From Bacteroidales bacterium (lineage in GTDB: Bacteria; Bacteroidota; Bacteroidia; Bacteroidales; UBA12077): 51,044 nt of DNA. The DNA lies in NCBI GenBank assembly GCA_019038645.1, contig JAHOYT010000029.1, forward strand, positions 1 to 51,044, written 5' to 3'. The position numbers and the translations under genes were made by a program. The notes under the pieces were generated by a model. It was not told the origin of the DNA. It saw only the letters and a list, made by a program, of their open reading frames with translations, and did not search any database. This document shows positions 14,690 to 38,004 of this stretch, piece after piece; positions within the stretch are counted from its first letter, which is position 1; every line of letters begins with the position of its first letter.

Positions 14690-15319
14690 ATGATTAGAAC
14701 GGAACGTATAGCAGCAAAAATTGTCAGAGACCTAACATGGCATTTTACCGGAAGGGACAATGAGCTTTTTTTAACATTTGACGATGGCCCCACACCGGAA
14801 ATTACTCCATGGGTTCTTTCTGTTTTAAAAGATTTTAACGCTAGGGCAACATTTTTCTGTATTGGTAAAAACGTTAAAAAACATCCTGAGCTTTATAATC
14901 AAATTATTAACGAAGGACATTCAGTTGGCAATCATTGTTATTCTCATATTAAAGGCTGGCGAACAAGAAATAAAAAATACATAAGGAGCGTAGAAAAAGC
15001 TGCACAGTTTATCGATTCAGATTTATTCAGGCCACCGTTCGGTCGAATCAGGCCAGCACAAATTAATCGGCTAAAAAAGAAGTTTAATATTGTTATGTGG
15101 GATGTTCTTAGTAGAGATTATAATAATAAAATTGATAAGGAAAAATGCCTGCAGTATGTTATTGATTTTTCAGAATCAGGTTCAATCATTGTTTTTCATG
15201 ATACAAAAAAAGCTGAAAAAAAATTGAAATATACTTTACCAAAAGTCTTGAAACATTTCTCAGAAAAAGGATTTAGTTTTAACCTGATAGAAAATTCAAA
15301 GAGCTCTTCTTTTGATTAA
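14690..15319 (+). CDS. Polysaccharide deacetylase (NodB homology domain)
   Basis: A 209-aa carbohydrate esterase family 4 protein. The five motifs are visible: TFDDGP (29-34, with Asp31 as base and Asp32 as metal ligand), the metal-binding GHSVGNHCYSH with His82 and His86, RPPFGR (114-119), WDVLSRD (137-143) and VFHDTKK (168-174). It would remove acetyl groups from N-acetylated glycans of the wall or surface. No signal peptide is evident. It is probably co-transcribed with the DUF2723 gene. Its last 24 nt overlap the convergent nucleotidyltransferase gene. Confidence 0.9.
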   Translation: MIRTERIAAKIVRDLTWHFTGRDNELFLTFDDGPTPEITPWVLSVLKDFNARATFFCIGKNVKKHPELYNQIINEGHSVGNHCYSHIKGWRTRNKKYIRSVEKAAQFIDSDLFRPPFGRIRPAQINRLKKKFNIVMWDVLSRDYNNKIDKEKCLQYVIDFSESGSIIVFHDTKKAEKKLKYTLPKVLKHFSEKGFSFNLIENSKSSSFD

Positions 15320-16471
15320 GAATTTGTAAATCAGAAAAAAAGGCCTAAGGACATAATAAAGGAAAAATAGACTTTTTGGAAGCTTTAATAATTCCCAATC
15401 CGACAAATGAGTTCTTAACCGGTATATTAATTCAAAATAATACCTGAAATCAGCCTTAAGTTGTAAACGGTAAAAAACAAATTTCATTTTCCCTTTTACT
15501 CCTTGCTGACTTAAATCATTAATATGAATTGAGTTTAATGGAATTTTTATCAAATTCTTTTTAAAATCAAAATTTGCAAAATCAGGCAGGTCGGTTTTAT
15601 ATATTAAATGTGATAATAAACACGCCTGAATAAAACATTTTTGAAGCTTTAGGTTTTTCGATAATTCAAATGCCTTTTTTATATCGTCGGGACTGGACTT
15701 TACTATTAGTCTGGAAAAGTCTTTTAGCCAGAATAGTCTGTACCATTGATGGATTGATCCGTGAGCAGCCTGATAAACCATGTTATCAATTTTTGAAATA
15801 TAGGATAACTGATAATTTGAAACCTTTAATTTCCGTGAGTTTGAAATTATTTGATTGGTTTCTAAATCAAAAAAGGTTTTGGGATTTGTTATGCTCCAGT
15901 GTAACTCAATATTAATGGGCTGTACAGGATGTGTAAAATGATAATGATGACTAAGCCTATAGTTTATTCTCTTTTGCTTTTCTGTAAGAATAATTTTTGG
16001 ATATATGCATTTAAAATCTAATTCTTCGAGTATACTACTGGTCTTTTTAACATTACTTTTTTCAACCAGAAAATCAATATCACCAAAATTTCTGTATCCT
16101 ACATCCTTATAAAGCTCCAGCGAAAGTAACGGACCTTTAAAAAAGCAATGAGGAATATTATTTTCGGTGAGTTTCTGATGAATACGAATAGCATGAATTG
16201 CGTAATTGAGAGATTTTTTTGAATGTTCCAGCCTGATTTCAATTAACTTCTCGTAAGTAGGAATAGGAATGTTATCAGCTAAAAAAGCGGAATGTTTTAA
16301 TACATGCGAAACAAGCCTGTGTTTTACAGTAAGATTAACAAACTCGTCCCAATCAATTTCATTTAAATTCCCCGAAAAAGGGTATTGACCTAACTCATCT
16401 TGTGAAAGAAAAATTAACAATTTCAATTCATTCGAAAATCGTTCTTTTATGTATTTTACGTATTGGTTCAT
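15296..16471 (-). CDS. Nucleotidyltransferase family protein of the lasso peptide locus
   Basis: A 391-aa protein of the NTP_transf_5 family (uncharacterised nucleotidyltransferase, Pfam PF14907). The active-site region is FFKGPLLSLELYK (110-122) and YRNFGDIDFLVE (126-137), with the paired acids Asp131 and Asp133 expected to bind metal. Its start overlaps the stop of the cyclase gene by 4 nt, so the two are translationally coupled. Relatives occur in lasso peptide clusters beside HPr-kinase-like genes, where they are thought to add groups to the phosphorylated peptide. Here the same role is inferred; the donor substrate is unknown. Confidence 0.8.
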   Translation of the reverse strand: MNQYVKYIKERFSNELKLLIFLSQDELGQYPFSGNLNEIDWDEFVNLTVKHRLVSHVLKHSAFLADNIPIPTYEKLIEIRLEHSKKSLNYAIHAIRIHQKLTENNIPHCFFKGPLLSLELYKDVGYRNFGDIDFLVEKSNVKKTSSILEELDFKCIYPKIILTEKQKRINYRLSHHYHFTHPVQPINIELHWSITNPKTFFDLETNQIISNSRKLKVSNYQLSYISKIDNMVYQAAHGSIHQWYRLFWLKDFSRLIVKSSPDDIKKAFELSKNLKLQKCFIQACLLSHLIYKTDLPDFANFDFKKNLIKIPLNSIHINDLSQQGVKGKMKFVFYRLQLKADFRYYFELIYRLRTHLSDWELLKLPKSLFFLYYVLRPFFLIYKFLIKRRAL

Positions 16472-18363
16472 TTAAATAATTTCGGATTTTTTTTAATAAA
16501 AAGAATCAATTTAAGGTAATTATAAAAAGCGCCCGGATTAATATTTTCGTTTGTTTCTTCTGATCTTTTACATAATTGAAGAAACCATTGCTCATACCTG
16601 TCTATATCAATATAACTTTTAATTGTTTCATTTGATTTGACACGATTTATTAATTCTAAAATATTGTTTTTATCATTCATTGTTCTCATAAAAACGGTTG
16701 GAATTGTTGCACCACTTTTATCATTCCTCCATTGAATTTCTTTTGGAACTATACTATCAATAGCTTGTCGGATAATATATCTTCCAATCCCGTTTCGAGC
16801 TTTTAATCTTGCCGGTATTGCCAGATAATATTCTATTAATCTTTTGTCAAGCAAAGGATAACGGTATTCAATTCCATATTTTCGTGCAATTAAAGAACAA
16901 TGCTCAAGTCGTTGTGAGACATGAGGATGTGTAATTCTTTCAATGTTTTTTTCCTGTAATTTCAGGCCTTGGGCTTTTTCATAATTTGCAAAGTATCTTT
17001 CTTTAATATTCAGCCGTTCAGAAAAATCTTTATTTATAGCCAGATTTTCAAATTTCCTTAACCACCAGGGTTTTTCGTATTTTATTGAAGTAACAATTTT
17101 AGCAATAAGAGGAATTTGAGATTTCAGATAATATTTAAAAAGAGCTTTTAAATATTGAGCTGTATTGAGTTTTTGATTTTTTAGGTCATCTTTTAATTCT
17201 TTCCACTGTTTCTTAGTAGCAAGTTCAGTAAGATATCCCAATGATTTTGATGTTACAACTTCATCTCCACCAAATCCGGACAATAACACAGAAACATTTT
17301 CTTGCATAGCAGAATTATACAAATGATCGGAAAAAACTCCGAAATTTTGTTGTGTAATTCCATTAGAGGCAGTTACGTTTTCCGAAATAGCCTCAATCAG
17401 GGTCTTGTTTTCTGATTTTATAAAATGTCGTTCTGAAATTTCACAATAATCTGCTAAAAGATTTATGTAGTCCCGCTCATCTTTGAATGGATGAATTTTA
17501 CTTAAAAGATGATCGGGCAATACATGAGAAAATGTTTTTAATTTTACAAATTGTGATGCAATTGCAGTAACACTTGACGAATCAATGCCTCCGCTTAATT
17601 CAGCCCCAACAGAATTATGACCGTCCGTCCTGCATTTTACAGATTCAATAAGTATGGATTTGAATTCTTTAATTATTTCTTCATTGCTTTTAGAATGAGC
17701 TTTTTGAGGTTTTAAATCCCAATATTGTATAATTTCTGTTTCGCCGTTTTTTAAAGTTAAATAATGTGCCGGAGGTAGCTTCCTGATTTCATTATATGTT
17801 GTCCTGCATTTTTCAGATTTAACAATGGAAATTGAATCGGCAATATATTGTTCATCAACACTAAAACTTAGATCGCTCTGTGCTAAAACTCCGGGAATGT
17901 CCGATGAAAAAATAAAACTATTATAATCAAAATAGTAATTAAAAGGCTTAACTCCGAAATGATCTCTTGCGCAAAAAAGTTCTTCTTTTTCTGAGTTCCA
18001 TATTGCAAAGGCAAAATCTCCCAACAGGTATTTTAAGCAGTCTTTACCCCATTTTTGGAATGCTTTTAAAATAATAAAATCATCGGCTAAGGATTTTTCC
18101 GGAATTTCTAATTCCGCAAGAATTTCAGTTTTATTATATAATTTGGAATCTGAAACAATTGTTAACTCAGAGTTTGTTTCGGGATCTTGATCTGCATTAC
18201 TTTTAAACGTAGGGAAAATTACTTGTCCTAATCCCCAATGATTTTCAATTATCAAGTCCTTTTTTACCTGAGAAGAAACACATATCTCATCAATACTTTT
18301 GCTAAAAAGAGATTTACTTACCGGGATTTGATTAGTATTAATTCTTCCAAATATGGATTTCAT
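16468..18363 (-). CDS. Lasso peptide cyclase (asparagine synthetase-like, C protein)
   Basis: A 631-aa asparagine synthetase B homologue. The C-terminal synthetase domain has the ATP pyrophosphate loop AELSGGIDSSSV (about residues 255-266) and LLSGFGGDEV. The N-terminal glutamine amidotransferase-like domain starts MKSIFGRI and lacks the catalytic Cys2 of true asparagine synthetases, as expected for lasso cyclases, which adenylate a Glu/Asp side chain of the core and close the macrolactam. Synteny with B1, B2, kinase and precursor supports this function over asparagine synthesis. A promoter lies at 18380-18387; the gene is divergent from the kinase gene. Confidence 0.85.
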   Translation of the reverse strand: MKSIFGRINTNQIPVSKSLFSKSIDEICVSSQVKKDLIIENHWGLGQVIFPTFKSNADQDPETNSELTIVSDSKLYNKTEILAELEIPEKSLADDFIILKAFQKWGKDCLKYLLGDFAFAIWNSEKEELFCARDHFGVKPFNYYFDYNSFIFSSDIPGVLAQSDLSFSVDEQYIADSISIVKSEKCRTTYNEIRKLPPAHYLTLKNGETEIIQYWDLKPQKAHSKSNEEIIKEFKSILIESVKCRTDGHNSVGAELSGGIDSSSVTAIASQFVKLKTFSHVLPDHLLSKIHPFKDERDYINLLADYCEISERHFIKSENKTLIEAISENVTASNGITQQNFGVFSDHLYNSAMQENVSVLLSGFGGDEVVTSKSLGYLTELATKKQWKELKDDLKNQKLNTAQYLKALFKYYLKSQIPLIAKIVTSIKYEKPWWLRKFENLAINKDFSERLNIKERYFANYEKAQGLKLQEKNIERITHPHVSQRLEHCSLIARKYGIEYRYPLLDKRLIEYYLAIPARLKARNGIGRYIIRQAIDSIVPKEIQWRNDKSGATIPTVFMRTMNDKNNILELINRVKSNETIKSYIDIDRYEQWFLQLCKRSEETNENINPGAFYNYLKLILFIKKNPKLFK

Positions 18364-18379
18364 GTAAAATCTGTTTTAA

Positions 18380-18387
18380 CAAAGATA
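18380..18387 (-). promoter_or_regulatory. Promoter -7 element of the cyclase-nucleotidyltransferase operon
   Basis: TATCTTTG on the minus strand lies 16 bp before the cyclase ATG and matches TAnnTTTG. It is back to back with the kinase promoter at 18456-18463, so the 117-bp spacer holds both promoters of the locus. Confidence 0.6.
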
Positions 18388-18455
18388 AACAAAATACAAA
18401 AGATTATTCTACAGCCAAAAACTCCAATAATGCTTAGTTTTAAGGGATTTTCGTG

Positions 18456-18463
18456 TAAATTTG
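18456..18463 (+). promoter_or_regulatory. Promoter -7 element of the kinase-sulfotransferase-B1-B2 operon
   Basis: TAAATTTG matches TAnnTTTG and lies 17 bp before the ATG at 18481. It supports that start over an upstream in-frame extension that would overlap the cyclase gene. No TTG with ideal spacing is visible. Confidence 0.55.
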
Positions 18464-18480
18464 TGATTGTTATTTGGAAT

Positions 18481-19377
18481 ATGGCAGAGACATTTACATA
18501 TAAAGCATTTGGGTTAATCATAAAGTCTGATTTTGAGATTCCGGAATTGCTGGTATTTAAAGGGTTACCTGATGTTCAGATTAAATCTGGTAAAGCTCCC
18601 GTTCAGCTCAAGGAAATAACAAAATACGGTGTAAAATACCAGGCTGCTAAAAATGAATTTTTACTGGAAGTAGATCATATTGCAAAGTACTATGTAAATG
18701 ACGGAGCACAGATAGTTGTTGAACCCTATAAAGGTGCTGTAGATAAGGAAGTCAGACTTTTTTTATTAGGCTCTGCTTTTGGGGCATTATTTCTGCAAAG
18801 AGGTTTATTGCCTGTGCATGGCAGTACCGTAAAATTTGGTAATTCAGCAACAATATTTACAGGATTAAGTGGTGTTGGCAAATCTTCAATAGCAGCTTAT
18901 TTTGTCAGTAAGGGATATCATGTTTTAGCAGATGATATAAGCGTTGTAAATCACAAACTGGAAGTTGTTCCCGGATTTCCTAATATGAAAATTTGGAATG
19001 ATGTGTTGCAAAAATTAGATATTAATGAGAAATCTTTGGCAGAAATAAGACCAAATATGAAAAAATTCCAGCTACCTGTTAATGATAATTATTTTAATGA
19101 AGCTCTTGCACTAAAAAATATCGTAATCATCATCACAAAAAATTCACCCGGTTTTGAATACGAGGAGCTAAGCGGAATTAAAAAATTTAATGCCATAAAA
19201 AGCAATACTTACAGATATAGATTTGTTCAGGCACTTGAGCAACAACTTGATCATTTTCAGTTATTAAATAAGCTTTTACCCGAAATTAAGGTTTATAAAG
19301 TGACACGACCACAATCGCCATTATCGTTAAGCGAGTTTGGGAACTTTCTTATAAATACTATGAAATTAAATGTATAA
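18481..19377 (+). CDS. HPr kinase-like lasso peptide kinase
   Basis: A 298-aa protein resembling the C-terminal catalytic domain of HPr kinase/phosphorylase. The P-loop GLSGVGKSS (about residues 135-143) and the following HVLADDISVV segment, with its acidic pair, are the family hallmarks. Homologues in lasso clusters, such as that of paeninodin, phosphorylate the hydroxyl of the C-terminal Ser of the precursor. The precursor found here ends in Ser, which fits. The frame is open upstream to 18238, but the promoter at 18456-18463 selects ATG 18481. The last codons overlap the sulfotransferase gene by 8 nt. Confidence 0.83.
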   Translation: MAETFTYKAFGLIIKSDFEIPELLVFKGLPDVQIKSGKAPVQLKEITKYGVKYQAAKNEFLLEVDHIAKYYVNDGAQIVVEPYKGAVDKEVRLFLLGSAFGALFLQRGLLPVHGSTVKFGNSATIFTGLSGVGKSSIAAYFVSKGYHVLADDISVVNHKLEVVPGFPNMKIWNDVLQKLDINEKSLAEIRPNMKKFQLPVNDNYFNEALALKNIVIIITKNSPGFEYEELSGIKKFNAIKSNTYRYRFVQALEQQLDHFQLLNKLLPEIKVYKVTRPQSPLSLSEFGNFLINTMKLNV

Positions 19378-20236
19378 AAAAAACATTATATGGCTTGCAA
19401 GTTATCCTAAGTCGGGGAATACCTGGTTTAGAATATTTCTTACAAATTTGTTAAGCGATTCTGATACTCCTGCCAATATTAATGATCTGACAGAAACCTC
19501 CATATCAAGTTCCCGAAAAATATTTGATGAATATACAGGTCTTTCATCATCCGATTTAACATTTGAAGAAATTGACAGGATGCGACCTGATGTTTATCGG
19601 ATGCAATCGCTTGAATCAGACGAACTTTTATTCAAAAAAGTCCACGATAAATATTATAGCATAGAAAACGATCAGGCTCTTTTCCCTGCTGAAATATCCA
19701 AAGGAGTTATTTACTTTATCAGGAATCCTTTGGATGTGTTGGTTTCGTTTGCATATCATAGTGCAAGACCTGTTAATAAAATGATTTCAACTCTTAATGA
19801 TTCAAATTACGCGTTTTGTGATAATAAGGACAAATTACAAAATCAATTAAGACAGATTATAGGAAGCTGGTCAGATCATGTAAAAAGCTGGGCCGAGCAA
19901 ACAAACATTCCTGTTCATGTTGTTCGTTATGAAGACATGGTTAATTCAACTTTCGATAGTTTTAGCAAAGCAGTAAAATTTATTGGATTAAAGAAAACAG
20001 AAACTGAAATCTCAGATGCGATTAAAATGAGTGATTTTTCAGTATTGGCGAATCAGGAAAAAAAGGATGGCTTTAAAGAAAAGACAATAAAATCGAAATC
20101 ATTTTTCAGAGAAGGCAAAATTGGCGACTGGAGAAATCACCCGGAAGAAATAATAATGAAAGAAATTATTGCGAATCACAAAGATGTTATGATGAAATTT
20201 GGGTATTTAAATTCTAAAAACAAATCGGTTTTTTAA
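19370..20236 (+). CDS. Sulfotransferase family protein of the lasso peptide locus
   Basis: A 288-aa PAPS-dependent sulfotransferase (PF00685 type). The 5'-phosphosulfate loop WLASYPKSGNTWFR lies near the start, the 3'-phosphate motif YFIRNPLDVLVSFAYH is near residues 118-133, and GKIGDWRNHPEE near residue 250 resembles the GxxGDWK motif. The gene is tightly packed between the kinase (8-nt overlap) and B1 (2-bp gap), so a tailoring role on the lasso peptide is likely. Candidate acceptors are the hydroxyls of Tyr8, Tyr13, Ser or Thr in the predicted core. The acceptor is not known, and carbohydrate substrates cannot be excluded. Confidence 0.85.
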   Translation: MYKKNIIWLASYPKSGNTWFRIFLTNLLSDSDTPANINDLTETSISSSRKIFDEYTGLSSSDLTFEEIDRMRPDVYRMQSLESDELLFKKVHDKYYSIENDQALFPAEISKGVIYFIRNPLDVLVSFAYHSARPVNKMISTLNDSNYAFCDNKDKLQNQLRQIIGSWSDHVKSWAEQTNIPVHVVRYEDMVNSTFDSFSKAVKFIGLKKTETEISDAIKMSDFSVLANQEKKDGFKEKTIKSKSFFREGKIGDWRNHPEEIIMKEIIANHKDVMMKFGYLNSKNKSVF

Positions 20237-20238
20237 TT

Positions 20239-20529
20239 ATGAGTAAAATAACAATCACATTGAATACAATTATTCAGAGAAACAATGAAACTCTAACCAG
20301 CGACCTTGATGGCGAAAAAGTAATGATGAGTATCAAACGTGGAGAATATTATGGACTCGGTAAAACCGGAACATTTATTTGGGATAATATTGATGAGCCG
20401 GTTACAATAAGCGATCTTGTAACTATGATTACAGAAAAATATAATGTGGATAAAAACCGGTGTTTGAACGATATTAAACCTTTTATTGCTGATTTAGTTG
20501 AAAAAGAGTTGATTATTGCAACCAATTAG
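20239..20529 (+). CDS. PqqD-like lasso peptide B1 protein (RiPP recognition element)
   Basis: A 96-aa protein of the PqqD family, which forms a small winged-helix RiPP recognition element that binds the leader peptide and presents it to the protease. The N-terminal strands (ITITLNTIIQRN, TLTSDLDGEKVMMSIKRGEYYGL) and the C-terminal helices around ISDLVTMITEKYNV and IKPFIADLVEKELI match the fold. It sits 2 bp after the sulfotransferase and 34 bp before B2, the usual split B1-B2 arrangement of Gram-positive-like and Bacteroidota lasso clusters. Confidence 0.88.
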   Translation: MSKITITLNTIIQRNNETLTSDLDGEKVMMSIKRGEYYGLGKTGTFIWDNIDEPVTISDLVTMITEKYNVDKNRCLNDIKPFIADLVEKELIIATN

Positions 20530-20563
20530 TTTTGTAAACGTTTAAAAAAGATGAACATATACT

Positions 20564-21001
20564 ATGTTCAAATTGTTAAGAAAATATTATAGCATAGATA
20601 AAACTGAACGTAAAATTTTGAACCGGACTTTCTTTTGGTTGATTTATGCTTTTATCCTGGTTAGGATAGTTCCCTTAAAATGGTTTAGCCATCTTTTGGG
20701 TGAATTTAAAAATGAAGTAGTAGTTGAAATAAATTCCGGGCAAAAGGGATTAATTCAAATGCTAAGAAAAAATATAAGAAGGTGGAAACGCTATTTACCC
20801 TGGAAAGTAAAATGTTTCGAGGAAGCCATTGCAGGGAAAAAAGTTCTTGCAAAATATAAGATAGGCTCAACACTTTATTTGGGTGTTGATAAGAACACAA
20901 ATAAAGAGTTAATAGCTCATGCATGGTTAAAAGCAGGGAATGAAATTATTATTGGCAAAAAGGGATTTGAAAAATTTGTTGTTGTTGGATTTTATAGCTA
21001 G
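20564..21001 (+). CDS. Lasso peptide B2 protein (transglutaminase-like leader peptidase)
   Basis: A 145-aa cysteine protease of the lasso B2/transglutaminase-like family. The likely catalytic Cys84 is in WKVKCFEEAIAGKKVL and His119 in AHAWLKAGNEIIIG, the characteristic HAW motif. A hydrophobic segment near residues 23-37 may anchor it to the membrane. It removes the leader after recruitment by B1, freeing the alpha-amine of Gly1 for cyclisation. The third acidic residue of the triad is not obvious. The precursor gene begins 135 bp downstream. Confidence 0.87.
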   Translation: MFKLLRKYYSIDKTERKILNRTFFWLIYAFILVRIVPLKWFSHLLGEFKNEVVVEINSGQKGLIQMLRKNIRRWKRYLPWKVKCFEEAIAGKKVLAKYKIGSTLYLGVDKNTNKELIAHAWLKAGNEIIIGKKGFEKFVVVGFYS

Positions 21002-21117
21002 AAAATAAATTATTATAATATAGAAAGTGGTATAAATCATTTTTACAGAAAAAAACTTGTAGAATAAATAAAAGCATAATAAATTTACTGTAAATAAACT
21101 ATTTGCGTATAATTTAA

Positions 21118-21125
21118 TAGTTTTG
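21118..21125 (+). promoter_or_regulatory. Promoter -7 element of the lasso precursor gene
   Basis: TAGTTTTG is an exact TAnnTTTG match in the 132-bp spacer after B2. It would place the transcription start near 21131. A dedicated promoter is common for lasso precursors, which are needed in excess over the enzymes. Confidence 0.5.
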
Positions 21126-21136
21126 CACCAATTTTG

Positions 21137-21316
21137 ATGATGGAATATAAATGTGATGAGATGGAAGAATTGAAGAATAATAAAGAAGAAGATAAAACCG
21201 ACAATAAAATTCTCTGGGAAGTTCCCAAACTTTATTCTTTAGATAAAGGAAAAACTGAAGGTGGAACTTTGATGAGCACTTATGAAGATGCTGATTATTC
21301 AGATCCAAACTCGTAA
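21137..21316 (+). CDS. Lasso peptide precursor with predicted core GGTLMSTYEDADYSDPNS
   Basis: A 59-aa peptide when started at the first ATG. ATGs also occur at 21140 and 21161; the promoter at 21118-21125 would leave almost no leader for the first two, so 21161 (50 aa) is a serious alternative. The leader holds a WEVP motif, equivalent to the YxxP element recognised by B1, and ends KTE, giving the conserved Thr at position -2. The core is encoded at 21260-21313. Gly1 to Glu9 would form a nine-residue ring, and the tail DADYSDPNS ends in Ser, the expected kinase target. There is no Cys in the core, so it is a class II lasso peptide. The prediction rests on motifs and context. Confidence 0.85.
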   Translation: MMEYKCDEMEELKNNKEEDKTDNKILWEVPKLYSLDKGKTEGGTLMSTYEDADYSDPNS

Positions 21317-21335: not shown

Positions 21336-24300
21336 ATGAAAAAACTCTTATTAGCACTTATTTTATTTTCGATTTTATCAAATAGGGTGTTTTCTCAGAA
21401 CTTTATTTTATCGAATTCAATAACCAGTAGTTCAAAGGTTAGAACTGCAGAGCTAAAAAAGGTAAGCGATGGAGTGTTGTATTATGGAGATTTCATTGGC
21501 ACCCTGAATGTAACAGGAAATCCTTCAGCTGATGTGAGAGATATTTTTCTTGCAAAATACAATGATAGTTTTGAATTAGAATGGATACAACAGATTGGAG
21601 GAACTTTAAAGGACTGGGCGTATGATTTAGTTGTTCATGATAATTATATATATATAGTTGGAAGGTATCAAGGCACATGCATATTCGATGGTGGTGCTGA
21701 GGTATTGTCAGCTTTAGGAATTGTTTATGATTCCTTTTTAGCTAAATATAAGTTAGATGGAACATTTGTGTGGGCGAAACCTTTTGCCTATAACGAAGCA
21801 GATCAACAAGCAACAACTATTGATGTTGATAAAAATGATGATTTGATTATTGGAGGATTCTATACAGATTCAATAACGTTTGAAATTGATAAATTTATTT
21901 CGGCCAACGGAATGTTTTATTCAAAGGCTGATACTTCAGGAGCTCTTCTTTGGGTAGAAAATATCCCTACCGATAATACAGGTAGTAAAATACAAGCAAT
22001 TAGTGCTTTCGATGACGGATACTATTTTACAGGTAATGTAGAAGGAGCTGCAACATTTGATATTGGCGGTATTGCTAGTAATGATCCTTTATTTAGTGAT
22101 GTATTTTTATATAAAACAGGATTTACAGGGACTGGTTCCTGGTTGCGGAAAACATATGGATACGGATCAGCTGATACTAAAACAGGAACTATTACTGGCG
22201 ACGATTATGGTAATATTTATTTTACCGGACTTTACGGAGGAACATACATTGAAGTTGATGAAAACAGTTCTCAAATATCGTCCCAAACTCTTGTAAATAA
22301 TGGAAGTTTAGATGCATTTATAATTAAATATAATAAAACAGGCGATTTAAGCTGGCACTATAATTATGGTAATGCCGGGGAAGAATGGGCCAGAGATATA
22401 GAATTTAAAAATGGATTTTTATATTTAACAGGATATTTTAGCGACACATTATTTGTTGAGAATGATACATTAATCTCAAGTGACCCTCTTGATTATGATG
22501 CTATTTTGGGAATGTTTGACTCCGAGGGTAATATGTTAAGAGCAGCACATATCGAAGATGCAAATGATGGAACTACATCAGGTATTGCGCTTAGCGTAGA
22601 TAGTGAAAACAATGCATATTGGGGAGGCGATTTTAAGGCATCACAAATAACAATTGGAGATAGTACATTTAATAAGTCGGGTATTCAGTCTGGTTTCATT
22701 TCAAAATATAAACCAACTTATACTGTGGCTTTTACAAAAAAACAAAATCTTACTTGTAATGGAGATAGCGATGGAGAATTGATAGTAACTCCTTATTTTG
22801 GTGTACCACCATTTAATTATAACTGGAGCCATGATGTAGGATTAAATGATTCAACTGCAACAGGGTTGCCTGCAGGAAGATATACTGTTACGGTAACAGA
22901 TTTTTTGGATTCCATTGCAACTATATTTTATGATATAACTGAACCCGATGCTTTTATATTTGATCCTACAATTACAGATGTTACAACATGTAGTTATAAT
23001 TCAAATGGAGCTATTGATTTAAATGTTTCCGGAGGTAATGGAGGCAATACTTACTTTTGGATTGGAGAAGAAACAGAGAATATTGAAGATCAAACAGGTC
23101 TTGGTATTGGAAGCTTTTATGTTACAGTTACAGACACAGAAGGATGTACAAATGATACAGCAATAAATATTACAGGTCCTGAACCAGTTATCTTTAACGG
23201 AACTTTAGTTACAGATGATTCCGGAGTAGATCCTATACATAATGGTGCAATAGACTTAGTATTAGTTGGTGGATCTACCACTCCTGCAAACTATGGAGCT
23301 TCATGGACTGGTCCTTCCGGATATAATGCAGCAACACAAGATATTTCAAGCCTCGCAGCTGGGACATATTATGTTACTGTAACAGATGAGAACAGTTGTT
23401 TATTTGACTCGAGTTTTACAGTTGTAGATTTAGATACATTATTTGCTTATATTTCAAATAAGAAAGATGATTGTACGGGACTCCCTGGTGATGGCACGGC
23501 ACAAGTTAGTTATTATACACCAAATGCAACTGCCGTAATATCTTATTCATGGAGTCATGATGGAGGTTTAAATGATTCGGTTGCAACAGGATTAGCAGCT
23601 GGATTATATTATGTTACTGTTACTGATAGTGATTTATCTGAAACATCTGTGGATAGTGTTCAGATATTAGATTTAGGCTATACAATGACAGGGGATTTAG
23701 ATGGAACTCTAGATGTGAATTGTAAAGGTGATTCTGATGGTTATATAGATTTAACAGTTATAACTCCAGGACAATCACCATATTTATATGAATGGAGTAA
23801 TGGCGACACAACACAGGATATTATCAATTTACCAGCAGCTACATATAGTGTTACAGTTACTGATGATAATGCATGTACATTACAAATATCAAATTATACA
23901 ATATCAGAGCCAGCTTTAGATTTAACGGTACCACCACCTGGTATTTCTTCATATATTTTATGTTACGGTGATTTAAATGGAGCGCTTTTAGCCGATCCTT
24001 CAGGTGGTAATGGAGGTTATACTTATAAGTGGAACGACCCTGGGGATCAAACAAGTAATCCGGCTACAGGGCTGGAAGCAGGATTTTATACTGTAACTGT
24101 AACTGACTCTAAATTATGTACTGCATCTTCAGGTGTTAATCTTACTCAACCAGATGTTCTTACTGTTTCAGGTATTATAGGTGATTTAACTTGCTTTGAT
24201 GATAACAGTGGAACAATTGCTTTAACAGTTGGGGGGGGGACTCCTTCATACGATTATTTTTGGTCCACTTCAGATGGTAATGGATTAGCTGTGGTTGATA

Positions 24301-25157
24301 AAAATCAAAATGGATTATCCGCGGGATCCTATGAAGTTACTATTACTGATGGAAATTTATGTGAAGTTTCAGATACTTTTATTGCAGCAGAGCCTTTACA
24401 GATACAAATAGATACAGAAAATAAAACGGATATTACAACATGTAATGGAGATGCTACCGGCACTATTACAATTACAGCTTCCGGAGGAACAGGAGTTTTA
24501 ACATACACATTGAATCCAGGAGCAGTTCAAACTAATACAACAGGAATATTTTATGGTTTAATTGCAGATACTTATACAGTAGATGTTGATGATGATAATA
24601 ATTGTGGGCCGGTTAAGTCAAGTTCAATTGCAATTGCCGAACCATTAGTTATTACTATTGATTCGGAAAACTCAACAGATGCATCTTCTCAAACTACAGC
24701 TGATGGAACAATAACAATTACCGCCTCTGGTGGTACCGGAAATTTAACTTTTACTTTAAAACCGGATAATACATCAAATCAAACAGGAATATTTACATCC
24801 ATATTGCCTGAAGATTACACTGTAGAAGTTAGTGACGAGAATGATTGCGGACCTTTGACTTCAGGTATAATTACAGTTAGTTTCCCTGATGCAATTGAAG
24901 ATATATTAGCTAATGATAGAATCAGAATATATCCGAATCCAACATCTGATAAGATATTTATTGAGGTTGATATCGATAATGATAATCTGAGTGTGGAAGT
25001 TTTAAGCGTTTCCGGACAGATATTATTGAACAAAGTTATTAAATCAAACGGAGTTACTAAGGATGAGCTTGATTTATCCAGTTATCCAAAAGGTGTTTAT
25101 TTTATAAGAATTTTTAATAATCAATTTAACTTTACAGATAAGATATTATTGCAATAA
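21336..25157 (+). CDS. T9SS-secreted cell-surface protein with SprB repeats
   Basis: A 1273-aa exported protein. A Sec signal peptide (MKKLLLALILFSILSNRVFSQ) is followed by a propeller-like region to about residue 460 with repeated FLAKYN/W/GG...D units. Residues about 470-1185 hold roughly nine SprB-type repeats, each ending in a form of AGxYxVTVTD. A type A T9SS sorting domain (IRIYPNPTSDKIFIEV to KGVYFIRIFNN) closes the protein. It is likely an adhesin or gliding-type surface protein. The frame stays open upstream to 21282, but ATG 21336 precedes the signal peptide. It starts 20 nt after the lasso precursor with no terminator between them. A nine-G run lies at 24231-24239. Confidence 0.88.
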   Translation: MKKLLLALILFSILSNRVFSQNFILSNSITSSSKVRTAELKKVSDGVLYYGDFIGTLNVTGNPSADVRDIFLAKYNDSFELEWIQQIGGTLKDWAYDLVVHDNYIYIVGRYQGTCIFDGGAEVLSALGIVYDSFLAKYKLDGTFVWAKPFAYNEADQQATTIDVDKNDDLIIGGFYTDSITFEIDKFISANGMFYSKADTSGALLWVENIPTDNTGSKIQAISAFDDGYYFTGNVEGAATFDIGGIASNDPLFSDVFLYKTGFTGTGSWLRKTYGYGSADTKTGTITGDDYGNIYFTGLYGGTYIEVDENSSQISSQTLVNNGSLDAFIIKYNKTGDLSWHYNYGNAGEEWARDIEFKNGFLYLTGYFSDTLFVENDTLISSDPLDYDAILGMFDSEGNMLRAAHIEDANDGTTSGIALSVDSENNAYWGGDFKASQITIGDSTFNKSGIQSGFISKYKPTYTVAFTKKQNLTCNGDSDGELIVTPYFGVPPFNYNWSHDVGLNDSTATGLPAGRYTVTVTDFLDSIATIFYDITEPDAFIFDPTITDVTTCSYNSNGAIDLNVSGGNGGNTYFWIGEETENIEDQTGLGIGSFYVTVTDTEGCTNDTAINITGPEPVIFNGTLVTDDSGVDPIHNGAIDLVLVGGSTTPANYGASWTGPSGYNAATQDISSLAAGTYYVTVTDENSCLFDSSFTVVDLDTLFAYISNKKDDCTGLPGDGTAQVSYYTPNATAVISYSWSHDGGLNDSVATGLAAGLYYVTVTDSDLSETSVDSVQILDLGYTMTGDLDGTLDVNCKGDSDGYIDLTVITPGQSPYLYEWSNGDTTQDIINLPAATYSVTVTDDNACTLQISNYTISEPALDLTVPPPGISSYILCYGDLNGALLADPSGGNGGYTYKWNDPGDQTSNPATGLEAGFYTVTVTDSKLCTASSGVNLTQPDVLTVSGIIGDLTCFDDNSGTIALTVGGGTPSYDYFWSTSDGNGLAVVDKNQNGLSAGSYEVTITDGNLCEVSDTFIAAEPLQIQIDTENKTDITTCNGDATGTITITASGGTGVLTYTLNPGAVQTNTTGIFYGLIADTYTVDVDDDNNCGPVKSSSIAIAEPLVITIDSENSTDASSQTTADGTITITASGGTGNLTFTLKPDNTSNQTGIFTSILPEDYTVEVSDENDCGPLTSGIITVSFPDAIEDILANDRIRIYPNPTSDKIFIEVDIDNDNLSVEVLSVSGQILLNKVIKSNGVTKDELDLSSYPKGVYFIRIFNNQFNFTDKILLQ
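24231..24239 (+). repeat. Homopolymeric G9 tract inside the T9SS surface protein gene
   Basis: Nine consecutive G bases encode Gly-Gly-Gly in the context TVGGGTPSYDYFW. In an AT-rich genome such a run is exceptional. Loss or gain of one base would shift the frame and remove the C-terminal T9SS sorting domain, so the tract could act as a slipped-strand switch. Confidence 0.7.
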
Positions 25158-29063: not shown

Positions 29064-32000
29064 TTATTTTTTAAACTTAATCTTTTCAGGCAGATCAAGT
29101 AGTTTTTTTAGTACTTCGTAATACAGAGTGATATAGAAAAAGATTGTCATTATCCAGACAAAAATCATATTAAACCAGAATGTATCATGATATTTTCCTG
29201 CAAAATACTTTCTGGGTGCGTAAAAGTGAGACCTGAAATTAAAATAGCCCTCAATATCCGGATCTCTGTAGACAGGATCTACTTGTTGTACTAATTCGTC
29301 TTTATATTGTATAATCTTATTTTTTTCAAACACCTTTTTTACCTGATCTTCAACACTCTCATTGTGGAAAGCATCACGCTTATTACGGTATAAATCAGGG
29401 GTAGTTTTTAACAGATAACGAATTTTATTTTCTTTTTCATTATTTGCTTTTTGAAATATAGTACTATAATAGGAATCCAGGTTATCTATAAATTCTCTGG
29501 TTTTACTAATTACAATATCGTTTAACAAAGCTGTATCTAACTGATGTCCTGACTCAAGTGGTATCCCGGTTCTTATTTCTTCCTTGGGGAGTTCAGTTTT
29601 TAGTAACCTTAAACTATTTGTTATATTCTTTTTTACTTCCTGATTATCTTCAAATTTACACCAGTTATCTTCAATGTAGACAAGATGTTTATCCAGTTCA
29701 GGAATATAATAAACCTGTTTAAAGTCGGCATTACTTTCACGTTTTTCTATTTCGTAGAAATTCTTCTCAAATTCATTATTTTTAAACTGGTTTACCATTA
29801 AGGCCTCAAAGGACCACTTGGTAGGCATGAATTCTGCAATAAACGGAACTTTTTTCACACTTCCGATTGAACGATTCATTTTATCAAAAGGAAACATTGC
29901 GCCGCTTAATATCATCATTGGAATCATTACCAGCGGAATAAGTATATATATTGTAACAGCAGAATTAAAGGATGCTGAAACATTTAATCCCATCATATTG
30001 GCAAATGCTGCAGTTGTAAAAAGTGCAAACCAGTATTCAAATGTCATTTCCTTTATACCTAAAATATTGTTTGCTATTAAAACGAACAAAATGGCCTGAA
30101 TAGCAGAAATAGTGAACAGTATAAATATTTTTGAAATAAGATAACTGGATCGACTTAAATTAAGAAATGCTTCACGTTTTAATATTTTTCTGTCGCGGAA
30201 TATCTCTTCGGCACTTACAGTTAACCCCAGAAACAAGGCAACAATAAGGCCCATAAATATATAAATATGAATATTTTCGTTTTCCCTGAATATGTAAAGA
30301 TTGGAATTAGGGTCAGCAATGTAACGAATAATGTATGACAGGATAAAACCAAGTACCGGAGCTTCTAACAGGTTTAGGGCTATATATTGTGTATTGCTTA
30401 TTTTAGAAAGGAAGTCCCGAATTGTATAAATCTTTAATTGTTTAATCCACGAGGGAATATTAAGAGTGGTAGGGGGGGCGTCTTTTACATCCTGAATTTC
30501 TTCAATTTTAATATTTTCATCAAAATTTTCTTCCCATTTTAAAGGAGAGATTTTTCTTTTCGGTGTGTATTTCCCGTATTCATCAACTACTTTAGCCTCT
30601 ATAATGTTAAAAATAAGTTCAGGGTTAACATTACCACAGGTAGGGCATTCTCCAACATCACTATTGATTTGTGCATCAAGTCGTTTAAAGTACATTACCC
30701 CTTCAACAGGATTGCCGTAATAAATCATATAGCCACCAGTATCCAGAATCATCATATTGTCAAACATTTTATATATGTCTGATGATGGCTGATGTATAAC
30801 AACAAAAATGAGTTTCCCTTTAAGGGCAAGCTCTCTAAGCAGGTCCATAACATTTTCGGAGTCTCTGGAAGAAAGACCCGAGGTAGGTTCGTCAACTAAA
30901 AGGATTGACGGTTCTCTGATAAGTTCAAGGGCAATGTTCAATCTTTTTCGTTGTCCTCCACTAATCATTTTGTTCATCGGAGAGCCAACTTTCAGGTCTT
31001 TTCGATCGTATAAACCTAAACTTGTAAGAGTTTTACTTACCAGTTCAACAATTTCTTCTTCCGATTTATCATTGAAACAAAGCTTGGCATTATAGTAAAG
31101 GTTCTGAAAAACCGTTAATTCCTCAATAAGTAAATCATCCTGAGGGATATAACCAATAACTCCTTCGAGTTTTTCTTTTTCCTTATGAAGGTTTATTCCG
31201 TTTATTAGTATTTCTCCTGAAGTGGGTACGTTTAATCCTGTGAGAACACTAAGCAGGGTAGTTTTTCCTGCACCGCTGGCACCCATAAGGCCTATTAATT
31301 TACCCTGATCTTCTGAGAAATTTATATTTCTTAATCCAACACCACCGTTCGGGAAAACAAAGTTTATATCTCTTGCAATATAAGAGATTTTTGTTGCGCT
31401 ACTATCTGTTAAATAATGTGCAACAATATCGCTATAATATATAGGTTTACCTTTTGGTAGCTTAATTGTACCTCCGCTTGCAAACAAGTATATTCTGTTA
31501 TTGTTAACCGGAAGACCATTAAGGAACAGATCTTCGTTACCATTGTAACGCATAAAATAGAGATCTGCGCTTTTAACCTGAAGGATAAAGATGTTGCCGT
31601 CTAAGGCCTCAACTCTAAAGTGTTTAGCATTTTTACACTCACTCTCTTTATCATTAATGATAAGATTGCCGACACTATCAATTTCTGAGATTTCGTTATT
31701 AATAACAAAACTTTCAACACTTTGAAATTCTTCTTTGGTTAGCTTAAATACTTCGGCAACTGTATTAATAATTGCCATTCGTTGTTCGGAGAACTTTCTA
31801 TCGGCATTTACCAACTCAAAAAGTCTTACCAAAACAATAACCTTTTGCTTTTGAGTAAGAGTTTTGTTAATTTTTTTACATAATCCCAGGATTCGAACAG
31901 AATCTTTAACAGAAGTTAATTTTACCGTTTCATTTTTTTCTACTTTCTCTCCTGTGATACCGGCTTTTTCATCAAAAAGAGCCATGTATTCAGGCACTAC

Positions 32001-32126
32001 TTCATCATTTAATTGTTGAGTTAAGAAGTTTTTTACGAATTCCCTTTCACTGGATTCTACACCTTCGTCTTGTTTTGCAATAATAGCAAACAACTGCATA
32101 AGGGCTCTTAAAATCTCTTCACTCAT
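29064..32126 (-). CDS. ABCG-type ABC transporter with TerB-like and FHA-like N-terminal regions
   Basis: A 1020-aa fused ATPase-permease. Residues 1-150 are helical and resemble a TerB/DjlA domain (LMQLFAIIAKQDEGVESSEREF). Residues about 155-245 are beta-rich and FHA-like (LFLNGLPVNNNRIYLFASGG). The ATPase has Walker A GASGAGKTT, signature MISGGQRKRLNIALE and Walker B ILLVDEPTSGLSS. A linker carries a CPTCGN motif. The ABC2-type membrane region starts near residue 590, with a long soluble insert of about 200 residues before the final helix. The transported substrate is unknown. It lies 47 bp after the SiaC-like gene in the same operon, so it may be the output of that switch. A C7 run lies in the linker (30472-30478). 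Confidence 0.85.
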   Translation of the reverse strand: MSEEILRALMQLFAIIAKQDEGVESSEREFVKNFLTQQLNDEVVPEYMALFDEKAGITGEKVEKNETVKLTSVKDSVRILGLCKKINKTLTQKQKVIVLVRLFELVNADRKFSEQRMAIINTVAEVFKLTKEEFQSVESFVINNEISEIDSVGNLIINDKESECKNAKHFRVEALDGNIFILQVKSADLYFMRYNGNEDLFLNGLPVNNNRIYLFASGGTIKLPKGKPIYYSDIVAHYLTDSSATKISYIARDINFVFPNGGVGLRNINFSEDQGKLIGLMGASGAGKTTLLSVLTGLNVPTSGEILINGINLHKEKEKLEGVIGYIPQDDLLIEELTVFQNLYYNAKLCFNDKSEEEIVELVSKTLTSLGLYDRKDLKVGSPMNKMISGGQRKRLNIALELIREPSILLVDEPTSGLSSRDSENVMDLLRELALKGKLIFVVIHQPSSDIYKMFDNMMILDTGGYMIYYGNPVEGVMYFKRLDAQINSDVGECPTCGNVNPELIFNIIEAKVVDEYGKYTPKRKISPLKWEENFDENIKIEEIQDVKDAPPTTLNIPSWIKQLKIYTIRDFLSKISNTQYIALNLLEAPVLGFILSYIIRYIADPNSNLYIFRENENIHIYIFMGLIVALFLGLTVSAEEIFRDRKILKREAFLNLSRSSYLISKIFILFTISAIQAILFVLIANNILGIKEMTFEYWFALFTTAAFANMMGLNVSASFNSAVTIYILIPLVMIPMMILSGAMFPFDKMNRSIGSVKKVPFIAEFMPTKWSFEALMVNQFKNNEFEKNFYEIEKRESNADFKQVYYIPELDKHLVYIEDNWCKFEDNQEVKKNITNSLRLLKTELPKEEIRTGIPLESGHQLDTALLNDIVISKTREFIDNLDSYYSTIFQKANNEKENKIRYLLKTTPDLYRNKRDAFHNESVEDQVKKVFEKNKIIQYKDELVQQVDPVYRDPDIEGYFNFRSHFYAPRKYFAGKYHDTFWFNMIFVWIMTIFFYITLYYEVLKKLLDLPEKIKFKK

Positions 32127-32173: not shown

Positions 32174-32554
32174 TTACATTGTATAACTTACCTGTTCAAA
32201 CGGTATATCAACAATATCAGCATACTCTTCACCTGCCTCTTCCATATCCTCGTCGTCATCGGGGAAGAACCATTTAATTACAACTTCTTTACCATTCTCG
32301 TGCATTTCTTCAAGTTTCATTAAAATGTCAAGAATTAATTTTGAAGATGCGGTGTTAAAGTAAACAAGTTTAAACGCGAAAACGGTTTTGTCATTTGCTT
32401 CATCCTGATAATCTTCCAGCCAGTTTAATACAGGCTCATAAAATGTAGTTACGTCTTCAGGTAGCGATCTGCCTGAAATTTCAAAAATACCATTGTCTTT
32501 ATCAAGAATAATGGTTGGAGTATCGTCAGTACCTTTGAGCTTTATTACTTCCAT
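32174..32554 (-). CDS. SiaC-like phosphoprotein (DUF1987)
   Basis: A 126-aa protein of the DUF1987/SiaC family, with an acidic C-terminus (FFPDDDEDMEEAGEEYADI). In Pseudomonas aeruginosa SiaC is phosphorylated on Thr68 by SiaB and dephosphorylated by SiaA, and unphosphorylated SiaC activates the diguanylate cyclase SiaD. Thr68 is present here in the segment VYFNTASSK. The kinase gene lies 12 bp upstream and a PP2C-type phosphatase before that. No diguanylate cyclase is in the window, so the partner is unknown. Confidence 0.88.
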   Translation of the reverse strand: MEVIKLKGTDDTPTIILDKDNGIFEISGRSLPEDVTTFYEPVLNWLEDYQDEANDKTVFAFKLVYFNTASSKLILDILMKLEEMHENGKEVVIKWFFPDDDEDMEEAGEEYADIVDIPFEQVSYTM

Positions 32555-32566
32555 AATATTAATTAT

Positions 32567-33142
32567 TTAAGCGTTTCTAGAAATTGATGATGTTAACAAG
32601 AAAAACGAACTTCCTTCGTCAATGGGTAAAAAGTGGTATTCAAGTTTATTGCCTGTTTTTCGGGCTATGTCAATAAACCCTAATCCGGCACCACCTTTTT
32701 CAGAAAGTCTTCCTTCTTTCATCTGGTTTTTATAAAGCTGCTTAAGACCTTCTTTGTCTAAGCTGTTAATCTGGTTGAGCATCTCGGTAAGTTCTTCGAT
32801 TTTATCATTTTCGATAACATTACCTGTTGTTACATGATAATCTTTTTTTCCTTTGCTTACCATGAATATGCCTCGGCCTGCAAAAAGAAAATCATCAGAC
32901 CCAAATGAATCTGCATGTTTACTAATGTTTTGCAAACACTCAACCATTACGTGGAATACCTTCTTTTGTACAGAATTATCTTCTGACTCCTTAGCCATAT
33001 TTGATTCTGTTAAAGAAGTAAATGCTTTGGTAATCTGGTGAGTTATTTCACCTTCGTATACCAAAGTAATTTCGTGAGCCTTCATAGATCTGTAAAAATC
33101 ATAAACAAATTCCAGAAAGCCTTTTACATTACTTTTATCCAT
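32567..33142 (-). CDS. SiaB-like protein kinase (DUF6272)
   Basis: A 191-aa protein of the SiaB family, which is related to GHKL-type ATPases and to anti-sigma kinases such as SpoIIAB. The segment VFHVMVECLQNISKHADSFG (about residues 72-91) corresponds to the N-box, and GGAGLGFIDIARKTGNKLEY (about 149-168) to the glycine-rich ATP lid region. It is expected to phosphorylate the downstream SiaC-like protein on Thr68. It is encoded between the PP2C phosphatase (38 bp upstream) and SiaC (12 bp downstream), the order SiaA-SiaB-SiaC of the Pseudomonas locus. Confidence 0.82.
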   Translation of the reverse strand: MDKSNVKGFLEFVYDFYRSMKAHEITLVYEGEITHQITKAFTSLTESNMAKESEDNSVQKKVFHVMVECLQNISKHADSFGSDDFLFAGRGIFMVSKGKKDYHVTTGNVIENDKIEELTEMLNQINSLDKEGLKQLYKNQMKEGRLSEKGGAGLGFIDIARKTGNKLEYHFLPIDEGSSFFLLTSSISRNA

Positions 33143-33180
33143 AGGTTGTAAAATTAATATTTATTAAAAATAATAAAAAA

Positions 33181-35790: not shown

Positions 35791-35805
35791 ATAACTAATA
35801 ATAAT

Positions 35806-36579
35806 TTAATACTTAATTAATTCTTTACCAATTTTATCTGAAATACTTTCAAATAGATCATTAAAGATTTTACTAAATTTTTTAAATGAAGCAAGTTCAA
35901 TAATCCCAACAGTTTCGTCATTAAGTATTATTGGCGCTATTAACAAATTATTTGGAGAACTGCTACCCAGGCCAGACAAAATAGTTGCATAATTTTCAGG
36001 GATTTCTTTCAGATTTAATGCCGTTTTATTTTTTGCAACCTGACCGGATAATGTTTCGCCGTATTTAAAACTTTTGGGTTGCTCTTCGCCAAAATAGGCA
36101 TATTTACCTGCAATATTGAAAATGTCGGATTCCTTTTCTTTCACAAAAAGTAAACCCTGAACTATATCAAACTCCTTAGCCAGATTGCTCAGGATTTTTT
36201 CAGAATATTTTATTAAATTTAATTTCGCATTTTCTTTGGGTAGAATTTTACTAATATAATATTCTATATTGGCTGTTTCTTCTTCAATAATTTCTTTGTC
36301 TGATTCCTTGTGTTTTGAATTATCTCCAATAATCTGAGTTTGCTTATTAGAATAAATATTTTCAGATTCGTTTTTATTTGTTAGCAGAATAAAAAGCACA
36401 AATAAAAATAAAACAAGTATTGCAGCCAGAATTAAAAGAAAGTAAATAATATTTTGATCTTCGAAAAGTTGATTGGAAAGAATCATATTTCGGATTTTAC
36501 CGAAAAGTGTAAAAAAAACAGTCAGCTCAATAATGAGCACGATAAATGCAAGTGTTTTATATATTTTTAAACGATTCAT
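35806..36579 (-). CDS. Membrane-anchored GAF domain protein
   Basis: A 257-aa protein with two N-terminal helices (about residues 10-30 and 42-65), a charged linker and a GAF domain (about 110-255). The GAF sequence closely resembles that of the neighbouring phosphatase: here EIPENYATILSGLGSS, there EIPENYTTITSGILGD. It lacks an output domain. It lies 15 bp upstream of the phosphatase and 9 bp downstream of the CheB-like gene. It may form mixed dimers with the phosphatase sensor or tune its signal; this is inference. Confidence 0.75.
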   Translation of the reverse strand: MNRLKIYKTLAFIVLIIELTVFFTLFGKIRNMILSNQLFEDQNIIYFLLILAAILVLFLFVLFILLTNKNESENIYSNKQTQIIGDNSKHKESDKEIIEEETANIEYYISKILPKENAKLNLIKYSEKILSNLAKEFDIVQGLLFVKEKESDIFNIAGKYAYFGEEQPKSFKYGETLSGQVAKNKTALNLKEIPENYATILSGLGSSSPNNLLIAPIILNDETVGIIELASFKKFSKIFNDLFESISDKIGKELIKY

Positions 36580-36588
36580 TTAAAACTG

Positions 36589-37146
36589 TCATTTTAATTT
36601 TAGTAAAAAGCTTATTATTTGCTCAGTTGTGAATATATGATCAACTGTTGTTTGTTTTAACGAGGCTTCAGTCATGGTTTTTACCTGGCATTCATTTGGG
36701 TCCTGCACAATTGCCAATCCCCCCGATTGTTTTAATTTTTTCAGTCCATAAGCTCCATCGCGATTTGCTCCGGACAGAATTATACCGACTAGTTTATCGC
36801 GATAAGCCTGTGCTGCTGTTTCAAATGTAAGATCAATTGAAGGACGGGAATGATTAACGGGTTCTTCAGTTGATAATGCAATACGTTTATTTAGTTCTAC
36901 ATACATATGATAATTGGATGGAGCAAGATATCCTTTCCCAGGCTTTATTGTTTCCTTATCATAAGGTTCAAGAATAGGAATTGTTGATTTTATTGATAGT
37001 GCTTCCACAAATCCCGAACGTACATGTTTTAATCTGTGCAAACACAACAATACAGGCAATGGAAAATTCTTTGGTAATGAACTTAATATTTTTGTAATTA
37101 CCTGAAAACTTCCTGCTGAACCACCAATTACTACTGCTTTATACAT
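36589..37146 (-). CDS. Stand-alone CheB-type methylesterase domain protein
   Basis: A 185-aa CheB methylesterase catalytic domain with no receiver domain. The Ser-His-Asp triad can be placed at Ser10 in VIGGSAGSF, His37 in LCLHRLKHVRS and Asp130 in SGANRDGAYGLK. The TMTEAS segment near the end is also typical. CheB removes methyl groups from receptor glutamates. The absence of a receiver means it is not controlled by CheA phosphorylation. It lies 6 bp after a CheR-like gene in the operon. Confidence 0.9.
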   Translation of the reverse strand: MYKAVVIGGSAGSFQVITKILSSLPKNFPLPVLLCLHRLKHVRSGFVEALSIKSTIPILEPYDKETIKPGKGYLAPSNYHMYVELNKRIALSTEEPVNHSRPSIDLTFETAAQAYRDKLVGIILSGANRDGAYGLKKLKQSGGLAIVQDPNECQVKTMTEASLKQTTVDHIFTTEQIISFLLKLK

Positions 37147-37152
37147 TTATTA

Positions 37153-37983: not shown

Positions 37984-38004
37984 TGTATAATACTTTTCTT
38001 TCTT

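Follow-up and report, generated by a model that had tools for sequence, protein, structure and literature searches.

What would a lasso peptide locus do with a sulfotransferase, and on which group of the peptide would the enzyme act? These questions are raised by a stretch of 51,044 nucleotides from a Bacteroidales bacterium (contig JAHOYT010000029.1; the whole stretch is called the window here), in which positions 15296-21316 hold the core genes of lasso peptide biosynthesis together with genes for a kinase, a sulfotransferase and a nucleotidyltransferase. We consider it likely that the locus makes a lasso peptide and is of the paeninodin/pseudomycoidin type, with a dedicated sulfotransferase as an addition. 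It is real and probably functional; loci of this known kind are common among the lasso-bearing genomes of its order. The product, for which we infer every reaction, would be a lasso (knotted) peptide, probably carrying both phosphate and sulfate and possibly glycosylated.

All seven genes of the locus were found at the coordinates given here. On the minus strand lie N (15296-16471), encoding an NTP_transf_5 nucleotidyltransferase-like protein (PF14907, 160.4 bits against a cut-off of 31.2, 7.7e-47), and C (16468-18363), encoding a probable lasso macrolactam cyclase of the asparagine-synthase fold for which NF033535 is the best model (418.8 bits, 4.1e-125); the start of N and the stop of C overlap by 4 bases. 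The other five genes are all on the plus strand: K (18481-19377), for an HPr-kinase-like lasso kinase (Hpr_kinase_C, 28.7 bits; H113, K134, D151, D152), overlaps by 8 bases with S (19370-20236), for a 3'-phosphoadenosine 5'-phosphosulfate (PAPS) sulfotransferase (PF00685, 92.2 bits against a cut-off of 22, 4.6e-26), and is followed by B1 (20239-20529), for a PqqD-type leader-binding protein, or RiPP (ribosomally synthesized and post-translationally modified peptide) recognition element (RRE; NF033536, 98.5 bits, cut-off 80), B2 (20564-21001), for a transglutaminase-like leader peptidase (NF033537, 74.8 bits, cut-off 33; PF13471 also above its cut-off), and A (21137-21316, with ATG at 21137 or 21140), for the precursor. 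B1 has relatives among the solved lasso B1 proteins (PDB 9x90_B, 1.5e-18; TbiB1, 8.2e-9). A sequence-only reading of this DNA had proposed the lasso core machinery and three candidate tailoring genes, and both proposals are borne out by these profiles and by the leader motif of the precursor. Its kinase gene also stands, with a different start: the listed open reading frame (ORF) of 379 amino acids, beginning at 18238, runs into C, and the reading frame and the homologous stretch make the ATG at 18481 the most likely start. That C might be a true asparagine synthetase was considered and ruled out, since TIGR01536 gave 241.2 bits, below its cut-off of 267.1, against 418.8 for the lasso cyclase, and the N-terminus, MKSIFG, has no Cys2; C occurs with B1 and B2 in relatives as well. 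Profile searches assigned neither the cyclase to asparagine synthesis nor B2 to an unrelated family, the outcome of such searches that had been named as speaking against a lasso locus.

Lasso precursors usually carry Thr at position -2 and an acceptor Asp or Glu at positions 7-9 of the core. A is an open ORF with its stop at 21316, to which no Pfam or NCBIfam model matched; its leader (...NKILWEVPKLYSLDKGKTE, ending ...WEVPKLYSLDKGKTE) holds WEVPKL, an instance of W-x-x-P-x-L, and T-E precedes GG, so that Thr stands at -2. The core, GGTLMSTYEDADYSDPNS, offers Glu9 as potential acceptor and ends in NS, Ser being its last residue; from this arrangement a Gly1-Glu9 isopeptide ring is predicted. 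The leader agrees with the lasso-like motif [Y/W]xxPx[LIV..] given in the available part of a published description (PMC13381572). At four loci of the wider set (L129, L130, L149 and L153) we saw multiple precursor candidates per locus, the candidate cores of L153 ending in Arg-Ser or Arg-Thr.

How dedicated is S to lasso loci? Across 247 genomes of the order, the window's own included, S occurs at 24 places in 21 genomes, with B1 in a short locus at 22 of these places and the remaining two at contig ends. The lasso B2 is present in 29 of the 247 genomes, and S in 21 of the 29 with B2 against none of the 218 without it. Over longer stretches, many of them ending at contig ends, 22 of the 23 S places outside the window could be followed, and these extended loci held B1 (21), K (19), B2 (16), C (13) and N (13); K is absent from three of these places, two in G033 and one in G053, and both genomes carry it on another contig. 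The combination of tailoring genes had been presented as unusual for Bacteroidota. This proved too strong a claim of novelty: all 21 genomes with S have B2 and 20 have N, and S-K pairs occur in the lasso loci of many phyla. A tie between S and N was likewise tried and found unsupported within lasso genomes, N being present in 20/21 with S and 7/8 without. In three loci (L058, L060 and L067) S and B1 form pairs, in the order K-B1-S at L058, separate from the B2 of the same genome; these are either lasso clusters that have been split or cases in which B1 and S serve a second purpose.

The supply of the sulfate donor follows a similar pattern. Adenosine 5'-phosphosulfate (APS) kinase is found in 19/21 genomes with S and 106/226 without (Fisher p 1.2e-4), and within B2-bearing genomes in 19/21 and 2/8, respectively (p 0.0014), both being genome-level statistics that ignore relatedness; the two genomes that have APS kinase and a lasso B2 without S, G160 and G161, share genus or family with S-bearing ones. 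Thus, within the order the S family is confined to lasso-bearing genomes, mostly with APS kinase. In the window's own genome the APS kinase gene adjoins two genes that we read as CysD and CysN, one with a PAPS_reduct domain and one for an EF-Tu-type GTPase, and a second PAPS_reduct-domain gene indicates that PAPS may also feed assimilation there. Three of the 21 genomes give a hint that PAPS genes may be physically linked to the cluster: C of G165 has as neighbours a TauE, a GTPase-APS-kinase fusion and a protein with a PAPS_reduct domain, S of G053 is about 3 kb away from an APS kinase, and in G125 N adjoins APS kinase. The idea that K itself is an APS kinase feeding S was rejected as a needed step, a normal APS kinase being present in 19/21 S-bearing genomes, the window's own included. 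On another contig of that genome (contig 65; L177:9213-11264), a gene for a YcaO-domain protein adjoins the APS kinase gene.

S itself very probably uses PAPS, because it has both the motifs and the fold of SULT-type enzymes. SYPKSGNTW, His92, Arg118 and Ser126 are invariant in the window's S and 17 relatives (18 aligned), and we take the first to be the 5'-phosphosulfate-binding loop, Arg118 and Ser126 to be the 3'-phosphate-binding residues, and His92 to be the SULT-type histidine. The predicted structure (predicted local distance difference test 91.8) has as its top PDB fold Teg12 with 3'-phosphoadenosine 5'-phosphate (PAP) and teicoplanin aglycone; estrogen and other cytosolic sulfotransferases rank next, and TEG12 also comes first in a profile search. 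The acceptor is not readable from motifs or fold.

A first indication of the acceptor comes from the company that S keeps. His113, Lys134, Asp151 and Asp152 of K, conserved in no fewer than 21 of the 22 kinases aligned from S-bearing loci, match the His-Lys-Asp-Asp (HKDD) motif reported for lasso kinases in the available part of a review (PMC9266682), and the core ends in Ser. For a wider view we took the best 80 of 584 S relatives from a scan of named genomes (a few of them duplicate or nearly duplicate loci already in the analysis, as L105 and L146 do, and L134 and L135 are near-identical); by their record titles they come from Bacteroidota, Chloroflexota, Acidobacteriota, Verrucomicrobia, Cyanobacteria, several classes of Proteobacteria and others. 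K lies directly upstream of S on the same strand in 68 of the 80 (ORF gap -507 to 765 bases), at least one of B1, B2 and C is present in 67 and at least two in 62. Moreover, in 52 loci that have all of K, S, C, B1 and B2 (N left aside and three duplicates removed), K and S show a distance correlation of 0.78 and a partial correlation of 0.57, the highest of the ten pairs, a value reached in 0/500 permutations; the second-highest partial correlation, S-B1, is 0.33. Among 18 loci of the phylum drawn by B1, K occurs without S in 12 (L078, L080, L081, L083-L088, L090, L093 and L094) and both occur in one (L079), so that within lasso loci S accompanies K and K is often found without S. A bolder reading, less likely than not, is that K and S are one tailoring module, S acting only on a C-terminus phosphorylated by K (and perhaps extended by N) to give a tail with both phosphate and sulfate. 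If so, a K-S module that makes a doubly anionic cap recurs in lasso clusters across phyla. With the present data, what has been an annotation remark on lasso-cluster sulfotransferases becomes a concrete experimental question: is K needed by S? As a separate observation, three S-bearing loci (L076, L123 and L126) have two kinase genes each; in L076 they flank S, and the first is without the P-loop pattern.

Several observations weigh against a functional locus with a dedicated sulfotransferase. C falls below the curated cut-off of 525 for its model, as K does below the Pfam gathering score of 33.3. No ATP-binding cassette (ABC) exporter was found by the ABC_membrane model among the 45 window proteins scanned. 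C was detected in 13 of the 22 extended loci, several of which are cut at contig ends; in G033 and G053 S stands with B1 alone, K and B2 being on other contigs; G033 and G223 carry S with no APS kinase detected at the threshold used; and the disregard of relatedness bears on the genome-level comparisons. Finally, B1, B2 and C are all missing from the stretch examined in 13 of the 80 relatives. K is directly upstream of S in five of these (L103, L115, L139, L149 and L156) and not in the other eight (L157, L158, L167, L170, L171, L172, L174 and L175), which fall in the last 19 ranked rows, so that not every member of the wider S family belongs to a lasso locus; one of the eight, L167, carries four sulfotransferase genes of the S family with no lasso gene detected in the locus.

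The missing exporter and the low score of C would fit a locus that is decayed, silent or the source of a linear peptide. ABC exporters (D) are common in lasso clusters, not universal, and three ABC_membrane genes lie elsewhere in the window's own genome (a motif scan put exporter-like ORFs at 16 of 102 loci; because it overlooked the exporter of L071 that Pfam shows, this count was not used). We regard decay or a linear product as very improbable: every frame is open, the motifs are kept, and two genomes of the same genus (L056 and L057) retain every gene and the leader with divergent cores, which argues that the locus is maintained beyond chance.

If the locus is functional, then, which hydroxyl would take the sulfate? 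Counts of cores across loci rest on the list from a leader profile, which gave a core in 25 of 104 S-bearing loci at E <=1e-3 and in 36 at E <=0.5; the profile was partly trained on the same leaders, so that leader conservation is circular whereas the last-residue counts are not. Ser ends 23 of the 25 distinct confident cores (the exceptions being L063, with Leu, and L102, with Asn), and 26/29 and 34/40 at looser thresholds, against 2658 of 29634 small ORFs taken as background (9.0%). The C-terminal Ser is therefore a near-constant hydroxyl in the cores of S-bearing loci, and by analogy with paeninodin it would be the site of the kinase. Together with the K-S coupling, this favours sulfation that depends on, or lies adjacent to, the phosphorylated C-terminus, and suggests an acceptor at or near that position.

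A variable Tyr, Ser or Thr side chain is about as likely an acceptor. Each of the 25 confident cores has at least one further Ser, Thr or Tyr in addition to its final residue. In the most specific form of this reading, in which S sulfates a core side chain, likeliest one of two Tyr in acidic context, independently of the C-terminal phosphate, this is a serious possibility, if somewhat short of probable: Tyr8 and Tyr13 of the window's core adjoin acidic residues (T-Y-E-D and D-Y-S-D), 19 of the 25 confident cores contain Tyr, and the nearest solved folds include phenol-type sulfotransferases along with Teg12. However, the six cores without Tyr mean that this residue is not a universal acceptor, and the travelling of S with K would be left unexplained. 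A role for S as a tyrosine sulfotransferase in all relatives was rejected as a general rule on the same six cores.

A sugar added by N is also a possible acceptor. That S sulfates a sugar or other group attached by N to the phosphate, giving a sulfated phosphoglycosyl tail, would agree with the presence of N in nearly every S-bearing genome of the order and with the hexose placed on phospho-Ser by PsmN, as told in the available parts of two reviews (PMC9266682, PMC8498205). We find it doubtful, because N is equally common in lasso genomes without S and was detected in 42 of the 80 S-relative loci, a count for which flanks were cut and the profile may miss divergent forms of N.

Taking sulfation coupled to the phosphorylated C-terminus as the working model, a route can be sketched in which the reactions, their order and the sulfate acceptor are all inferred. 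B1 would bind the W-x-x-P-x-L leader; K would phosphorylate the precursor at its C-terminal Ser; S would work together with K and add sulfate from PAPS; B2 would remove the leader after Thr-Glu; C would close the ring from Gly1 to Glu9; and N would decorate the phosphate, with a hexose in the sole studied case.

The surroundings of the locus offer further observations. About 20 bases past the precursor stop begins a gene for a large protein that has SprB repeats and a type IX secretion tail (21336-25157), and a similar protein, judged by eye, follows the precursor in L096 (11660-16729). A block at 32174-38844 contains SiaC, DUF6272, PAS/GAF/SpoIIE, CheB and two CheR genes; after it, on the same strand, comes a gene (29064-32126) for an ABC-2 transporter that carries a TerB domain. 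Between S and B1 of L057 (9440-9958) and L096 (9957-10505) lies a small ORF with no counterpart in the window, which we take to resemble REP (repetitive extragenic palindromic)-associated transposases. Consensus promoters were no more frequent than in shuffles (30 vs 32.2), and terminator-like sites were above them (9 vs 2.7), several lying within genes.

The tailoring genes of this cluster are already known in lasso loci, and kinase-bearing clusters, as the sequence-only reading had said, are in print. According to the available part of a 2014 survey, some lasso clusters contain genes for HPr kinase and sulfotransferase (PMC4289311); that of a 2020 rumen survey lists lasso clusters of Butyrivibrio with genes for HPr kinase and nucleotidyltransferase (PMC7533575), and that of a 2021 review describes kinase, sulfotransferase and nucleotidyltransferase genes in lasso clusters of Bacillota (PMC8498205). 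A statement that all three occur in one lasso cluster was not found in the available parts of the literature searched, which hold no description of a phosphate-plus-sulfate lasso tail either. The 2022 review of lasso modifications (PMC9266682) has no word starting with 'sulf', and among the matches listed (titles and abstract starts, with most subscription papers outside the coverage) there was no sulfated lasso peptide or assayed lasso sulfotransferase. Lasso-cluster sulfotransferases have thus been reported since 2014 (PMC4289311) with no function found in the literature searched, and it is the function of S and its coupling to K that are the noteworthy part of this locus.

Among the closest known systems, by their published descriptions, is paeninodin of Paenibacillus dendritiformis (kinases PadeK and ThcoK), with which, according to the available part of a review (PMC9266682), the locus shares cyclase, B1/B2, an HKDD kinase and a precursor ending in Ser; in contrast to paeninodin, it also has N and S, no exporter was found in it, and it belongs to Bacteroidota, not Bacillota. 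With pseudomycoidin of Bacillus pseudomycoides (PsmK, PsmN), which carries phosphate-linked hexoses according to the available part of a review (PMC8498205), it shares a kinase and an NTP-transferase for the C-terminal Ser, whereas the sources, as far as available, mention no sulfotransferase for pseudomycoidin. A 2024 paper, in its available part, describes a paeninodin-like operon with nucleotidyltransferase and sulfotransferase in Paenibacillus sp. APC 4171 and states that the same had been reported for P. polymyxa CR1 (PMC11381294); these are Bacillota, and that text has neither the word 'kinase' nor a function for the sulfotransferase. Teg12 and StaL resemble S in fold and in having macrocyclic peptide substrates, to judge from PDB titles, but at about 20% identity, and their substrates are glycopeptide antibiotics. 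Finally, the linear polyphosphorylated peptides share an HprK-like kinase, an RRE, an NTP-transferase and a lasso-like leader motif with our locus; as the available part of their description has it (PMC13381572), they have no cyclase and a signal-peptidase-like leader removal, whereas the window has both C and B2.

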